A DNA stretch of 64,000 bases from Bacillota bacterium (lineage in GTDB: Bacteria; Bacillota; Sulfobacillia; Sulfobacillales; Sulfobacillaceae): positions 62,001 through 126,000 of the forward strand of contig JAIMBD010000004.1 in assembly GCA_023511625.1 (NCBI GenBank), written 5' to 3'. The first letter of the stretch is position 1, and every line of letters begins with the position of its first letter. The translations under genes were made by a program, and so were the position numbers. This document shows positions 52,007-62,950 of this stretch, in pieces. Below the pieces are notes generated by a model. It ran no database searches. It was not told where the DNA came from and saw only the letters and a list, made by a program, of their open reading frames with translations.

Positions 52007-52405
52007 TCACATCTGCATTCGTTGCCGCCGGTGCTGCCCACAATAACCGGTCAGGGCAGGGTCGCACCGCGAACAGAGCGGGGCCCCGCAGGCGGTGCAG
52101 TAAATGACGGCCCAGCGTTGGTGCGCATTGCAGTGCAGGCGGAACGACGGCCGGCGGGGCGACGGGGCATCGGCGACCGGACGCCTGGCGGCCGAGCTTG
52201 TCCGCCGTCGCGCCTCTTGATAGGCCCAGATGACCTCCTTGAGCCGTTCCTCGTGCCAGCGCGCCTCCGGGGAGCCACGGGGAAACTGGTCCGGATGATG
52301 CCGCCGGACCAATCCCAGAAAGGCGCGCCGGATCTCCCCCTCTCCGCTGCCAGGGGGAATCCCCAGGATCCGCCAGGGGTCGCGCGCCGCCGCCATTTGC
52401 TTCAC
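52007..52405 (-). CDS. J-domain protein with C-terminal zinc-binding module
   Basis: A 132-residue protein. Residues 8-70 form a DnaJ domain: DPWRILGIPPGSGEGEIRRA, then HHPDQFP with the HPD tripeptide that stimulates Hsp70 ATPase. The C-terminal 40 residues contain CNAHQRWAVIYCTACGAPLC then CDPALTGYCGQH, a Cys/His pattern like a B-box or short zinc finger. The combination suggests a specialised DnaK partner, perhaps membrane- or substrate-specific. The GTG at 52405 is taken as start; the ATG at 52396 is possible. An extended -10 (TGT-TATACT, 52443-52438) lies upstream. Confidence 0.75.
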   Translation of the reverse strand: MKQMAAARDPWRILGIPPGSGEGEIRRAFLGLVRRHHPDQFPRGSPEARWHEERLKEVIWAYQEARRRTSSAARRPVADAPSPRRPSFRLHCNAHQRWAVIYCTACGAPLCSRCDPALTGYCGQHRRQRMQM

Positions 52406-53427: not shown

Positions 53428-54114
53428 TCATCCCCAGAATCGATCGCTCTTGCGGGTGCGCAACAATCCCCACTGGTGGGCATTTCGGGTCGCCTCGTGC
53501 CGAGAGCTGGCTTCGAGCTTGCGAAAAAGATGTTCCAAATGGCGTTTGACGGTGTGCGGAGAGACGAACAGCCGACGGGCGATCTCGTCGTTGCTGAAGT
53601 CGCGGTCCAAAAGCTCCAAGATCTCTCGTTCCCGGCGAGTCAGGCGCACTTTCGGCATCGGCAGTTCATCCGGATAGAACAGAGGCACCTCCAAGACCAT
53701 GCGCTGGGGCAGAAGCACCAGCGGATGGGGAAACGGCGCGGCGCGCTCGACGGTGTCCAATACGCTGAGCAAAAGCTCGCTGGAAACCGGCAGCACCACC
53801 GCCGCGTCCACCTCCCGGCGCAGCACGTCAAGGAGAAGCGACCACGAAGGGTTGGCCACGATGGCCACCAGCGGCCACGAGCGGTCATTACCGAGGGCGT
53901 GGCGAGGAGTAGAAGGCAGGTGCTCGAGGTCTTCTCGGCTATTGGCCAGGCACACCCAGACCAAAGACCCCCGCCCCGGGTATTCCATGGGCGTAGTTGC
54001 CACCACCACCTGACGGCCCATCTCAGTCAACCACTGGGCCAAAAGGCGGCAGGCCCCCATCTGAAGCCCAGTGATTACAAGGCGCGCACTCTCAGCCTCG
54101 ACCCCTTCAATCAT
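53428..54114 (-). CDS. LuxR-family transcriptional regulator with pseudo-receiver domain
   Basis: A 228-residue regulator. The C-terminal 65 residues are a LuxR/NarL helix-turn-helix: LTRREREILELLDRDFSNDE, then IARRLFVSPHTVKRHLEHLF. The N-terminal 150 residues have the alternating strand-helix look of a receiver (ARLVITGLQMGACRLLAQWL, WPLVAIVANPSW, AAVVLPVSSELLLSVLD) but lack the phosphorylated Asp and the acidic pair, so it is probably not controlled by a kinase. GAGGGAGG precedes the ATG at 54114. It is divergent from the TasA-like operon, 335 bp away, and is its likely regulator (inference). Confidence 0.8.
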   Translation of the reverse strand: MIEGVEAESARLVITGLQMGACRLLAQWLTEMGRQVVVATTPMEYPGRGSLVWVCLANSREDLEHLPSTPRHALGNDRSWPLVAIVANPSWSLLLDVLRREVDAAVVLPVSSELLLSVLDTVERAAPFPHPLVLLPQRMVLEVPLFYPDELPMPKVRLTRREREILELLDRDFSNDEIARRLFVSPHTVKRHLEHLFRKLEASSRHEATRNAHQWGLLRTRKSDRFWG

Positions 54115-54236
54115 CGGCGTTCCTCCCTCGCCAGGCCACAACGGAAAACACCCAGGTTCTGTGCCGACCAACAAAATCAGCTTCCGAGCACTACATTCTT
54201 TACCATTCTGACTTTTTCCTGCCAAAACCGATGGAG

Positions 54237-54272
54237 CTGGCAAAATTAGGTCTAGTGACCTAATTTTGCCAG
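54237..54272. promoter_or_regulatory. Perfect 16-bp palindrome between luxR-type gene and TasA-like operon
   Basis: CTGGCAAAATTAGGTC (54237-54252) is followed by TAGT and its exact complement (54257-54272). There is no T-run on either side, and it lies in the divergent intergenic region, 123 bp from the regulator start and 178 bp from the first TasA-like gene. An operator is more likely than a terminator, but both remain possible. Confidence 0.65.
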
Positions 54273-54449
54273 GAGAAAATAGGAAGCACAGTCAATTTCC
54301 ACCACGGTGTCTCCTCCGTAAGGTGGAGATGGGAAGTCGGAGGGGTGGTACGCCGCCCTCAGAGACGGCGAGAGCCGCCCCGAAACGAAGGTATTCCCAG
54401 GAGAAAGGGACCAAGCCTCGTCCCTTTGCCTTCTACAGGGGGAAAGGGT

Positions 54450-54890
54450 ATGTGGAAGATGACGCGATGGAGACGCAGGATCTTGGCACCGTTGCTCCTA
54501 ACAGCGACGTTGGGGGCGTCCGCCTACGCGTTCATGGCCTCCAACAGCGTCGCCGAGTCGTCGGCCGGAGCAGGCCAGGGGACCATCACCGGATACACCG
54601 TGACCGATATTCAGTACGACCTCAATGCTCTGGCTCCCGATCCTGGCCGACTGTGGTTGGTGACCTTCGACCTAGTTCCCTCCGACCCAAGCCAGCCCGC
54701 CACCCAGGTTGCGGTGTGGTTTGACAACCAGACGCAAGCGGTGGCTTCGACCTGGTACCACACCTGCCAGCAGACGTTTGGTCCCGACTCCCAGGGCGTC
54801 ACCGGATGGTCGTGCGGCCTGCAAGGCTGGGATCAAGAGGCTGGTCCCGGGCCCACCGCGACCATGTTGAACGTGGCCGCCGCCCACTGA
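54450..54890 (+). CDS. TasA/camelysin-like secreted protein 1
   Basis: A 146-residue precursor. Basic N-terminus (MTRWRRR), hydrophobic core and the motif GASAYAFMASNSVAESSAG, with a likely SipW-type cleavage near residue 27. The mature part is beta-rich (GTITGYTVTDIQYDLNAL) with AVWFDNQTQAVAS and two cysteines (106, 122) that probably form a disulfide. It ends NVAAAH. TasA-family proteins are cut by SipW and polymerise into extracellular fibres by donor-strand exchange; that function is inferred. GGGGGAAAGGG precedes the ATG. It is 39% shorter than TasA-type proteins of Bacillus (about 240). Confidence 0.75.
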   Translation: MWKMTRWRRRILAPLLLTATLGASAYAFMASNSVAESSAGAGQGTITGYTVTDIQYDLNALAPDPGRLWLVTFDLVPSDPSQPATQVAVWFDNQTQAVASTWYHTCQQTFGPDSQGVTGWSCGLQGWDQEAGPGPTATMLNVAAAH

Positions 54891-54904
54891 CCCCAGAGGT
54901 CAGT
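54886..54904 (+). terminator. Short hairpin after TasA-like gene 1
   Basis: ACTGACC / GGTCAGT (54886-54892 with 54898-54904), perfect 7-bp stem overlapping the stop codon, loop of 5 nt. No T-run follows, so at most a weak terminator or an RNA-stabilising 3' end. Confidence 0.35.
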
Positions 54905-55056
54905 CAAACCGTCGAGCATCTTGCTTCGGGGGAAAGGCGCAGTCTCGACAACCAAACCGAAGGCAAGTCGCAGAGGTGCTTGAAGTAAAGTGGCCTCGCC
55001 CAGGGAACCCTCCCCGGCAAATCGATTTACATCCGAAATTAAGGAGGAAATACCCC

Positions 55057-55494
55057 ATGCGTCTTATGCACTCGAAGTTAGGCCGGATCGCAGCCCCAGT
55101 CGCCCTCGCCGTGGCCTTAGGCGGCTCGGCCTACGCCTTCATGGCATCCAACTCCGTCCAGGAATCCAGTGCGGGCGTCGGTTCAGGCACGATTTCCGGC
55201 TACAATGTAAGCAATATCACCTACACGCTAAGCAGTGCAAACGGGAACCCCGACCAAATTACCAACGTGCAGTTCACCCTGACCCCGGCCGATAGCAACG
55301 GCTTGCCAGCACAGTCGGTAGCCGTGTGGTTTGACAACAATACGGCGAATGTGGCCTCCAGCGCCAACCAGGACTGCACGATCCAGTCCGGTTCCAACAG
55401 CAACAGCGTCACCGTCAACTGCAACGTCACGGCTCTCAACCAAATGGCGGGCGCCAACTCCTCCACCGCCTTGGACGTCGCCGCGGCGCACTAA
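55057..55494 (+). CDS. TasA/camelysin-like secreted protein 2
   Basis: A 145-residue paralogue of protein 1. The signal region IAAPVALAVALGGSAYAFMA and the following SNSVQESSAGVGSGTISGY are nearly the same as in protein 1. Later AVWFDNNTANVASS and cysteines at 107 and 122 are in matching positions, and the C-terminus DVAAAH is shared. The mature protein is rich in Ser, Thr and Asn and poor in Lys, as expected of a secreted structural subunit. AAGGAGG lies 9 nt before the ATG, the best Shine-Dalgarno of the operon, suggesting this is the major subunit (inference). Confidence 0.78.
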   Translation: MRLMHSKLGRIAAPVALAVALGGSAYAFMASNSVQESSAGVGSGTISGYNVSNITYTLSSANGNPDQITNVQFTLTPADSNGLPAQSVAVWFDNNTANVASSANQDCTIQSGSNSNSVTVNCNVTALNQMAGANSSTALDVAAAH

Positions 55495-55505
55495 GCGACA
55501 CCGAA

Positions 55506-55542
55506 GGGGCCTGGGGACGAGCGGTATTCGTCCCCAGGCCCC
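55506..55542 (+). terminator. Strong attenuator-like hairpin between TasA-like gene 2 and the peptidase
   Basis: GGGGCCTGGGGACGA (55506-55520) and its perfect complement (55528-55542) form a 15-bp GC-rich stem, 7-nt loop. No T-run follows (CCTTGGTGG). It would lower expression of the downstream peptidase gene relative to its substrates, or protect the upstream mRNA. Confidence 0.6.
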
Positions 55543-55595
55543 CCTTGGTGGCGAAAGACCATAGATCGACGATCGACAAGGAGAGGGGGAGGGTC

Positions 55596-57200
55596 GTGAA
55601 GGCTGCTCCTCATGGCCGGCGCTGGCTGAGGTGGATGATCGCTACGGCATTGATTGCGGCCTTCTGGTATACCTTGGCCCCTCCTCAGCTGGGTGGCAAA
55701 ACTACGATCTTGCTGGTCCAAGGAACCAGTATGTTGCCGCGTTTTCACGCTGGCGACTTGGTGGTGGTGCGCCAGGCCGCCCACTATACGGTAGGAACGC
55801 TGGCCGCATACCACTATGTGCCATTTCACTCGATCTTTTTCCACCAAATTATCGCCCGGGTCGACGGGCGCTACGTCTTTCAAGGCATCAATAACCCCGT
55901 GGCGGATAACTATCACCCGACCCGCCAACAAATCATCGGTCGCCTGTGGTTCGCCCTCCCCGGGGTAGGCAGCTGGTTCATCTTCTGGCGCCAACCGATG
56001 CATGCCGCCCTATTGGTGGGTGCTTTGGCCTTGGTGACCACCCTCACCGCCCCAAGGAGGAGACGGAGAATGGGACGAGTCGAACAGAAGGCGCCCCTGG
56101 GGCTGGCCGCCGCTGGCAGTCCAGGCCCTTGGTGGATCTTGTCCGGCGCGTTGGCCACAGTTGCGGCCGCGTCGCTGGCGATCAGCGGATGGAGCTACAC
56201 CCATCCCCTGACCACCGTTCAATCCCGGCCGATTACCTATTCGCAGAGCGTACATTTTGACTATCAGGCCCAGGTGGCTAAGAGCGTGCTCTATCCACTA
56301 GGAAAGCTCCGGCCAGGCGACCCGGTCTACGTGCCCCCGGTCGAAGCGATGACGGTGGGGCTGCAATACCAGTTAGACCTAAGGCAAGGCCAGGTCCTGG
56401 GCGGAACCGCCGGGCTAGATGCCGAAATCGTGAGTACCAGCGGCTGGCACTACCGCTATCCCCTGATCTCTCCCCGGCGGTTCACCGGCGCCTCCACTGC
56501 GCTGTCGGTGGCACTCGACCCCACGTCGGTCTTGAACACGGTGTCCCAGGTCACAGATATGACTCAGGACCAGCTAGACACCTATCAGCTTCGCCTCATT
56601 CCGATGGTCCGGGCCACCGCCCTGAGCCATGGAAAGCTGTTCTCGGCCCAGTTCGACCAGCCAATCGCCTTCGACCTCAACAAAAGCTGGCTAAGACTCC
56701 AGGTGCCCGACACGATCAGCCTAAACCAATACCTCAATCCGGTCAGCACGGGCTCAAGCCAGTATTCTCAAGTCGTGCCCAATGCCCTGACCGCCTTTGG
56801 GCTTGCAGTGCCCCTAAGTCAGACCAGACGCTACGGCCCCCTGGCGACTACCCTGTTCCTGTTGGGAGCAGGACTGGCATGGTGGTGGGGCCAGCGCGTC
56901 CAAAGCCGGCTGGATCCGGCCAGCCGGATTGCCCAACGATACGCCTCAATTCTGGTCGATGTCGACCACCTCCCATTCTCGCCCTTTGAGCGCAGTATTC
57001 AGGTGGGTTCGATCGACGGCCTGGTTCGCCTGGCCCTGCAGTGCGAACGGATGATCCTCCATGCCAAAAGCGGGGAGGACCTACACCTTTATCTTTTGGA
57101 GAACGTGGGGGAAAGTTACTACTACGTCGTGCCGGCCTCGGCCTCGAGTCCCCTCCCGCAAGCCCACCTGCAGTCGGTCGAGTCGATTCCCTCCCCGTAG
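55596..57200 (+). CDS. SipW-type signal peptidase I fused to a DUF5305 domain
   Basis: A 534-residue membrane protein. Helix 1 (WMIATALIAAFWYTLA) leads into an S26 peptidase domain: Ser45 in QGTSMLPRF, then His83 in FFHQIIARVD in place of the bacterial general-base Lys, and Asp104 in NNPVADNYH. This Ser-His form is the ER/SipW type that processes TasA. A second helix (about 127-150) is followed by a third (WILSGALATVAAASLAISGW) that opens a DUF5305-like extracytoplasmic domain (YTHPLTTVQSRPITY, KLRPGDPVYVPP, ISPRRFTGASTALSVALD) and a final helix near 430 (LATTLFLLGAGLAWWWG). GTG at 55596 follows AAGGAGAGGGGGAGGG. Confidence 0.82.
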   Translation: MKAAPHGRRWLRWMIATALIAAFWYTLAPPQLGGKTTILLVQGTSMLPRFHAGDLVVVRQAAHYTVGTLAAYHYVPFHSIFFHQIIARVDGRYVFQGINNPVADNYHPTRQQIIGRLWFALPGVGSWFIFWRQPMHAALLVGALALVTTLTAPRRRRRMGRVEQKAPLGLAAAGSPGPWWILSGALATVAAASLAISGWSYTHPLTTVQSRPITYSQSVHFDYQAQVAKSVLYPLGKLRPGDPVYVPPVEAMTVGLQYQLDLRQGQVLGGTAGLDAEIVSTSGWHYRYPLISPRRFTGASTALSVALDPTSVLNTVSQVTDMTQDQLDTYQLRLIPMVRATALSHGKLFSAQFDQPIAFDLNKSWLRLQVPDTISLNQYLNPVSTGSSQYSQVVPNALTAFGLAVPLSQTRRYGPLATTLFLLGAGLAWWWGQRVQSRLDPASRIAQRYASILVDVDHLPFSPFERSIQVGSIDGLVRLALQCERMILHAKSGEDLHLYLLENVGESYYYVVPASASSPLPQAHLQSVESIPSP

Positions 57201-58246: not shown

Positions 58247-58597
58247 ATGAAATCCTCCACGCGCAAGCACGGGAATCCGAAGGGGACAGCCAGCCTTTCC
58301 CTGCCCATAGCCCTGCCCCCTGAGCGTGTGGCGAAAATCGCCCAACAGTATGGAGTGCAAACCCTTGCCGTCTTCGGCTCAGTATTGCGGGACGATTTTT
58401 CGCCGACCAGCGACATCGATGTCCTGTGTACCTTAAAGCCAGACTCCCCGGCCCGAGGCCTCGGGTGGATCCGGCTCAAGCTGAGTCTCGAGGACCTGTG
58501 GGGACGCCCGGTGGATCTCGTCAAGCCGCAGAATCTGGACCCGCTCATTCGAGATGCCGTCCTGCGGGAGGCCCAGCTCATCTATGTCGCGCCATGA
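58247..58597 (+). CDS. MNT-type nucleotidyltransferase (antitoxin of HEPN/MNT pair)
   Basis: A 116-residue minimal nucleotidyltransferase. The motif VFGSVLRDDFSPTSDIDVLC gives Gly44-Ser45 and the metal aspartates 56 and 58. The C-terminal LRLSLEDLWGRPVDLV-type region (here LKLSLEDLWGRPVDLVKPQN) adds the third acidic residue. In MntA/HepT pairs the MNT protein AMPylates the HEPN toxin. The start is uncertain: ATG at 58247 is chosen because homology begins shortly after it; ATGs at 58199, 58223 and 58226 are possible. The HEPN gene overlaps its end by 14 bp. Confidence 0.78.
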   Translation: MKSSTRKHGNPKGTASLSLPIALPPERVAKIAQQYGVQTLAVFGSVLRDDFSPTSDIDVLCTLKPDSPARGLGWIRLKLSLEDLWGRPVDLVKPQNLDPLIRDAVLREAQLIYVAP

Positions 58598-59048
58598 CGA
58601 CGCTTTGTATCTTCGCCACATTCGGGAAGCGATCGCCAAGGCGATGGCTTAGGCGGGCTCTTCCCGCCAGGCCTTCTTCGCGGACGAGTTCCGTCAGTCC
58701 GCGGTGATTGGACAACTCGAGATTGCAGGAGAAGCGGCCGGTCGCTTGTCGGAGGCTTTGCGGCAGGCGCATCCCGGGATCGCGGCGCGAGAACTCAAGG
58801 CACTGCGGAATGTCCTGATTCACGCCTGTAGCGACGTCGAGTTGGAGACGGTGTGGGACGTCCACCGTGCCCTGGAACGGATTTCCATCGACGCCGTGGC
58901 CGCGCTTTGGCGCGAGCGGATCCGGCGGGTGGTGACCGAACGCATCCCGGCCCTGATCACCGAGGACGGCCGGGTGCTCGGCATGCTCACCCCCAATGCG
59001 TTCGGTCCATGGATAAGACCACCGGCAATCGGCCGTCGCGCGCCCTGA
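58584..59048 (+). pseudogene. HEPN-domain toxin (HepT-like) with in-frame amber codon
   Basis: The frame from ATG 58584 reads MSRHDDALYLRHIREAIAKA, a typical HepT N-terminus, then meets TAG at 58650-58652 after 22 codons. The same frame continues with GSSRQAFFADEFRQSAVIGQ, LEIAGEAAGRLSEALRQAHP and the HEPN ribonuclease motif LKALRNVLIHACSD (R-N-x-x-x-H). Downstream of about residue 105 the frame runs on into unrelated sequence. A GTG at 58704 could restart translation without the first helix. The toxin is probably inactive unless the amber codon is suppressed. Confidence 0.65.
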
Positions 59049-62447: not shown

Positions 62448-62675
62448 CTAAACCGGGTGGAACGTCCGCACGTCGATTTCGGCGCCCGTGGCCGCAGCCG
62501 CCTCTGCCGCTGCGTATACCGCCTCCATCACCTCAGCGTCGAGATATCGTTCCCCGCAGTCGGGGCAAATCTGCGCCGGCACCTGTCGAAACACCACCAG
62601 CGTCCCTGGCCGTTCTACGGTCACTGTAGTCGTGCCCGATTGCGGGATACCGCGCTTGCAAATCACACAGGTCAT
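62448..62675 (-). CDS. YgiT-type zinc-finger protein (MqsA-like antitoxin N-domain)
   Basis: A 75-residue protein with two CxxC pairs, TCVICKRG at residues 2-9 and QICPDCGERY near 37-46, and a central RVPGTLVVF-type strand (here ERPGTLVVFRQVPA). This is the YgiT/MqsA zinc domain. The helix-turn-helix half of full MqsA is missing. AGGAGGAAGTT precedes the ATG, which overlaps the stop of the DUF4258 gene (ATGA), so the pair is translationally coupled. Likely antitoxin of a toxin-antitoxin-like pair. Confidence 0.8.
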   Translation of the reverse strand: MTCVICKRGIPQSGTTTVTVERPGTLVVFRQVPAQICPDCGERYLDAEVMEAVYAAAEAAAATGAEIDVRTFHPV

Positions 62676-62950
62676 AACTTCCTCCTGGAAAACGTCGCGT
62701 CCCACCGGCGAGGGTCCGGCTCATACACGGTGATTACGATGACCTGGTCCTCCGCGGGATTGTCCGCAACCACGACATGGACCGGACGACGCCCTTCCCA
62801 CCCCAGCAGCAGCCGACTCGGATAGGGGGTATCATCCGGGTAGCGTTCAATGATGGCGCCACCTTGTATCACCGCTTCCACCACCGCGGGCGAGATATTA
62901 CGTTCGAACATGCGCTGCAAGGCGTGCACCCGGTATACGACGCGACTCAC
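62672..62950 (-). CDS. DUF4258 protein (MqsR/RelE-like toxin candidate)
   Basis: A 92-residue protein: VYRVHALQRMFERNISPAVV, then GAIIERYPDDTPYPSRLLLG and VIVITVYEPDPRRWD. This is the DUF4258 pattern (H-x-x-x-R-M-x-x-R at the start, ITVYEPDPxxW at the end). Such proteins are often paired with YgiT-type zinc-finger genes and are predicted RNases. The GTG at 62950 follows GCGGAGAAGG and fits a start of transcription from the extended -10 at 62984-62979. Toxin function is inferred from family pairing. Confidence 0.78.
   Translation of the reverse strand: MSRVVYRVHALQRMFERNISPAVVEAVIQGGAIIERYPDDTPYPSRLLLGWEGRRPVHVVVADNPAEDQVIVITVYEPDPRRWDATFSRRKL

Follow-up and report, generated by a model that had tools for sequence, protein, structure and literature searches.

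The locus at 53428-57200 of the window, the whole 64,000-nucleotide stretch of DNA that was analyzed, encodes a SipW-like system that exports a small β-sandwich subunit, an assignment that is well supported. It is best read as a fibre system of the donor-strand type, with SipW-like processing and a subunit family of its own, and we infer that its product is on balance probably a thin fibre or fibrous coat of protein outside the cell. The locus consists of a LuxR-type regulator gene that is divergent from the genes for two secreted subunits, here called SubA and SubB, and an ER/archaeal-type signal peptidase. Its features are as follows.

53428..54114, minus strand, divergent LuxR/NarL-type regulator of 228 aa with a C-terminal GerE helix-turn-helix (PF00196, E = 2.5e-17)
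54237..54272, no strand assigned, perfect inverted repeat in the divergent promoter region with 16-bp arms and a 4-base loop
54404..54427, plus strand, hairpin in the SubA leader with 8-bp arms, from sequence and fold
54450..54890, plus strand, SubA, secreted subunit paralogue of 146 aa, mature form 119 aa if cut after AYA
55057..55494, plus strand, SubB, secreted subunit of 145 aa, mature form 118 aa if cut after AYA
55506..55542, plus strand, stem-loop between the SubB and peptidase genes with 15-bp arms
55596..57200, plus strand, fused ER/archaeal-type signal peptidase I and DUF5305-type domain of 534 aa (TIGR02228, PF00717, PF17231)
55686..55973, plus strand, catalytic signal-peptidase part, residues ~31-126
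56211..56780, plus strand, β-rich, presumably extracellular domain, residues ~206-395, DUF5305-type profile, modelled mostly at pLDDT 75-90

The preliminary description had reported this gene order, the divergent LuxR-type regulator, hairpins and two secreted paralogues of about 118 mature residues that share their signal region, cysteine positions and C-terminus, and all of these were borne out. Two start codons were reassigned from the ribosome-binding sites: the peptidase most likely begins at GTG 55596 behind AAGGAG, giving 534 rather than 551 aa, and the regulator most likely begins at ATG 54114 behind GGGAGGA, giving 228 rather than 271 aa. Elsewhere in the window, a nucleotidyltransferase (58247-58597; PF18765/PF01909) is followed by a HepT-like RNase (58704-59048; PF01934) as an MNT-HepT type toxin-antitoxin pair downstream of the locus, an MqsA-type antitoxin-like ORF (62448-62950) lies beside a DUF4258 ORF and is likely part of a second toxin-antitoxin pair, and a short ORF at 52007-52405 has a DnaJ-like domain and a B-box-like zinc finger near the Pfam cut-offs.

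SubA and SubB are 50% identical over the matched part (E = 6e-31). Both carry SAYA-FMASNSV at the predicted cleavage site, where the hyphen marks the cut, both have two cysteines (C80 and C95 in mature SubB), and both end in VAAAH. Alignment of 13 subunit sequences shows that the two cysteines are invariant or nearly so, as are most positions of the N-terminal pattern M-A-x-N-x-V-x-x-S-x-A-G-x-G and, at the C-terminus, the Leu and Ala in L-x-V-x-A-A-(H/Q). Mature residues 1-24 are the best-conserved stretch of the subunit, with a mean conservation of 0.77 compared to 0.54 for the rest (shuffle p = 5e-5). The subunit has no family match in Pfam, NCBIfam or the PDB. Single-sequence and profile searches of the PDB returned no match for the subunit or the DUF5305-type part and no solved fibre subunit, and tblastn of plasmid records with two subunit queries found no match. 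Similar subunits may also occur in Actinobacteria.

An AlphaFold2 model built from six subunit sequences is a seven-strand β-sandwich (pLDDT 79) in which mature residues 1-15 are disordered. The preliminary description had proposed modelling the mature proteins and had held that the lack of a β-sandwich would speak against a fibre; the monomer is modelled as a sandwich. C80 and C95 occupy facing positions in one hairpin, as judged from the strand limits. A fold search with the model returned generic Ig-like sandwiches (Z ≤ 5.6) among the matches listed; TasA and TapA are not among the matches listed, an absence that excludes nothing. The amino-terminal segment is the most conserved part of the subunit and yet has no place in the monomer model, which argues for a donor-strand role.

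Sec would export SubA and SubB by means of a SipW-type signal that places aromatic residues around the cut, AYA-FMAS. The linked membrane signal peptidase, of the Ser-His-Asp type and fused to a DUF5305-type accessory domain, would cut both subunits. Each mature subunit would then fold into a small Ig-like β-sandwich clamped by a C80-C95 disulfide, and its free conserved N-terminal segment would act as a donor strand inserted into the following subunit, giving a linear polymer.

The main rival, which we consider fairly unlikely, is that the subunit is a non-polymerizing surface coat or wall-bound protein, either camelysin-like or part of the spore or cell envelope, with a dedicated peptidase and an N-terminus kept for peptidase recognition or anchoring. 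Conservation does begin exactly at the cleavage site, the conserved N-terminus could serve peptidase recognition instead, and the fold match is to a generic Ig-like sandwich only, all of which fit a coat protein; however, conservation extends 24 residues beyond the cut, which is more than a cleavage site needs. Two further observations, one on each side, come from related genomes and are given with them below.

The peptidase identity is clear at the level of class. TIGR02228 (best E = 5e-16) and PF00717 each match 8/8 members of the peptidase family, and the window peptidase matches the NCBIfam TIGR02228 model with E = 3e-10, under the equivalog cut-off. The SipW model NF046067 matches only two of the eight. 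S45, H83 and D104 are invariant, giving Ser and His (not Lys) together with Asp, and Asp104 is by our own mapping presumably the third catalytic residue. Members of the order have Ile or Leu in place of the first Asp of the usual KGD motif, whereas three loci of family f176 (L114-L116) retain it. P-type signal peptidases use a Ser-Lys pair and ER-type enzymes a Ser-His pair (PMC10269814), which identifies Ser45 and His83 as an ER-type active site. The DUF5305 profile (PF17231) matches seven of the eight peptidases (best E = 2e-8) and the window peptidase marginally (E = 0.12), and a membrane helix and then a conserved cytoplasmic tail come after the β-rich domain. The preliminary description had placed a SipW-type peptidase after the subunit genes; the ER/archaeal class and the TIGR02228 match uphold this, but the enzyme is not a plain SipW because it is fused to the DUF5305-type domain. 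The catalytic half is modelled poorly (pLDDT ~30-40), and fold matches of the peptidase model were left unused for this reason.

The DUF5305-type part was found in 28 of 398 Bacillota genomes, where it is typically a separate ORF of ~360-400 aa. A signal peptidase lies within ~4 kb of such an ORF in 15 of 20 Bacillota regions and is often adjacent or overlapping. Among seven secreted proteins encoded near some of these ORFs, there were matches to the cognate_SipW (6/7), camelysin (4), BsaA (3) and TasA (1) models. These neighbourhoods suggest that one machine handles TasA-type cargo elsewhere and a SubA/SubB-type subunit here. The natural fusion and the gene neighbourhood together point to DUF5305 as a helper of SipW-type peptidases, which would give an uncharacterized domain, with no mention found in the literature searched, a likely role as a signal peptidase partner. 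In the single-contig genome G035 (locus L038) an in-frame TAG at ~7625 separates the signal-peptidase and DUF5305-type halves; this may be a decayed peptidase gene, or the halves may be made separately.

The gene set recurs in relatives. Searches found the subunit in 8 of the order's 42 genomes and in 12 of 154 genomes of the class, where two of the 12 hits are weak and lie within larger ORFs. Across 398 genomes sampled evenly from the phylum, it was found in one, the window's own. It is missing from the other genome of the window's genus, which makes the distribution patchy. A peptidase of one kind adjoins the subunit at 12/12 loci read, from four families of the class. The preliminary description had proposed looking for the trio in related genomes and counted its absence as disproof; subunit and peptidase are together at all 12, and the occurrence of homologues there argues that the set is not a chance grouping. 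G041 has a second subunit copy at the position of SubA (L034:5396-5821), and the subunit frame is interrupted in G509 (L115). A tree of 13 subunits fits a SubA/SubB duplication either before or after the window and G041 lineages parted.

Of nine loci in the order, eight have a regulator homologue next to the subunit, and the ninth lies at a contig edge. The N-terminal half is receiver-like, and the window copy lacks the usual acidic phospho-acceptor. The LuxR-type protein would control the locus. The 16-bp inverted repeat at 54237-54272 is unique in the genome, was not seen in relatives, and is a candidate operator or transcript hairpin, with the operator role a guess. The stem-loop after the subunit gene is more general: one lies directly 3' of the subunit gene in 11/11 loci examined, although the sequences are unrelated. 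For eight of the nine loci of the order, no more than 1.5% of random stretches drawn from the locus contain a perfect stem of that length; the stem-loop in G035 is imperfect and very stable. Such an element fits strong expression of the subunit and weak expression of the peptidase, and a high subunit-to-peptidase ratio is suggested. It counts in favor of a fibre, since it would be expected of a strongly expressed structural gene.

An alternative that we regard as highly improbable is that SubA and SubB are small secreted proteins with a signalling or antimicrobial role under quorum-type control, a reading that their small size and the adjoining LuxR-type regulator would suit; the regulator matches GerE and a receiver-like half with no autoinducer-binding domain match, no conserved immunity or transporter gene was found at the loci, and the subunits are predicted to be folded with an invariant cysteine pair rather than peptide-like.

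Some genes near the relatives' loci are also consistent with a fibre. VKOR is encoded near the subunit locus in six relatives and a thioredoxin-like protein near five, and EAL-GGDEF proteins are encoded 3' of the peptidase in six; because many of these loci are close relatives of one another, the counts overstate the number of independent events. A VKOR mutant of Actinomyces oris is defective in pilus assembly (PMC5478893), and the VKOR and thioredoxin neighbours count toward a fibre. The VKOR/thioredoxin pair of the window genome is on another contig than the subunit genes, and the window locus itself has no VKOR, EAL-GGDEF, sortase or mini-protein gene. The EAL domain comes first in the EAL-GGDEF proteins of L038 (8894-10675), L039 (2435-4240) and L042 (9486-11360), with the GGDEF motif intact in L042 and degenerate in L038 and L039.

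Family f176 (L114, L115 and L116) has a cluster with two sortases, a transglutaminase-like protein and further secreted proteins, and these are the only sortases among the loci read. They fit wall attachment, and this is the family-level evidence in favor of a coat; the sortases and the transglutaminase count toward a fibre as well. A 280-aa protein in the L114-L116 cluster holds a subunit-like domain. A sortase-assembled pilus is not supported in the window, where the subunits end in VAAAH with no LPxTG-type sorting signal and there is no adjoining sortase gene.

Four loci of family f1 have an additional gene between the subunit and peptidase genes that encodes a mini-protein of 54-60 aa resembling a signal peptide joined to the subunit N-terminus.

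L041, 7586-7750, mini-protein ORF
L042, 7574-7753, mini-protein ORF
L043, 7472-7633, mini-protein ORF
L044, 8076-8258, mini-protein ORF

Compared with the subunit N-terminus, three of the four whole mini-proteins beat all 4000 shuffles, and two of the four do so with the mature part alone, which is modest evidence for homology. Bacillus subtilis TapA trimmed to its signal and residues 44-57 still supports biofilm (PMC10151520), and the f1 mini-protein resembles this minimal functional TapA in having a signal and a short N-terminal segment. The retention of just these parts speaks against a coat, and confirmation of the mini-protein would make it a naturally occurring counterpart of the 14-residue TapA segment sufficient for the B. 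subtilis biofilm (PMC10151520). Taken in full, the fibre reading describes a separate family of small disulfide-clamped donor-strand subunits, export by a fused peptidase/DUF5305 protein and, in some relatives, initiation or capping of the fibre by a natural mini-protein that consists of the donor strand alone; we put this complete version forward tentatively, as a possible rather than a probable one.

The preliminary description had called the subunits TasA-like. The processing and the N-terminal layout sustain the term, but the mature sequence does not. None of 11 subunit sequences matched the TIGR04088, TasA, BsaA or Peptidase_M73 models, and TIGR04088 (cognate_SipW) had no match in the whole window genome. 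Alignment of the subunit profile with true SipW cargo by hhalign covers 20 signal-peptide columns only, at a probability of 14%, and the C-terminal QW/QF motif of SipW cargo is absent from the subunit. The same processing machinery, the GG-x-x-aromatic-A layout with an aromatic after the cut and then a strand, and the modelled β-sandwich would also suit a true but highly diverged member of the TasA/camelysin family; given the unmatched models, the alignment confined to the signal peptide and the missing motif, we judge that improbable and favor a separate subunit family in a donor-strand-type fibre.

Several known systems share parts of this arrangement. The sortase pili of Actinomyces oris, assembled with MdbA and VKOR (PMC5478893), are similar in that pilin export is tied to VKOR and in that one related family here has sortases, whereas neither a sortase nor VKOR is linked to the window locus. 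Archaeal threads (Saci_0406) and archaeal bundling pili are built from β-sandwich subunits processed by signal peptidase I and joined by N-terminal donor strands (PMC9715654). They resemble the present system in SPase-I-type processing and the modelled β-sandwich, with donor strands suggested here by conservation and modelling; in contrast, no sequence relation was found, and this locus is bacterial and has different neighbours. BsaA (TIGR04090), camelysin/CalY (PF12389) and other SipW cargo have the same SipW-type signal peptide layout, BsaA and camelysin share the peptidase class, and a DUF5305-type gene lies near some of them, but the mature parts show no profile match and their C-terminal motif is lacking here. 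DUF5305 (PF17231) is fused to the signal peptidase in this locus and is a separate neighbouring ORF elsewhere in Bacillota.

The closest comparison is with TapA-SipW-TasA of Bacillus subtilis. TasA polymerizes through an N-terminal donor strand, residues 28-38 (PMC9674648), and its cleavage site TWA-AFND (PMC10269814) and AYA-FMAS both have an aromatic residue at P2. The subunits here are about half the size of TasA, have an invariant cysteine pair and show no sequence match, and the locus differs in its fused DUF5305-type domain and LuxR-type control, with no full TapA gene seen. In both systems the cargo is linked to an ER-type signal peptidase of its own, and a free conserved N-terminus precedes a β-sandwich, which is modelled here. 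TasA-type fibres are well characterized mainly in Bacillus; if the donor-strand fibre reading is true, they extend beyond Bacillus to another branch of the Bacillota, with a different subunit.
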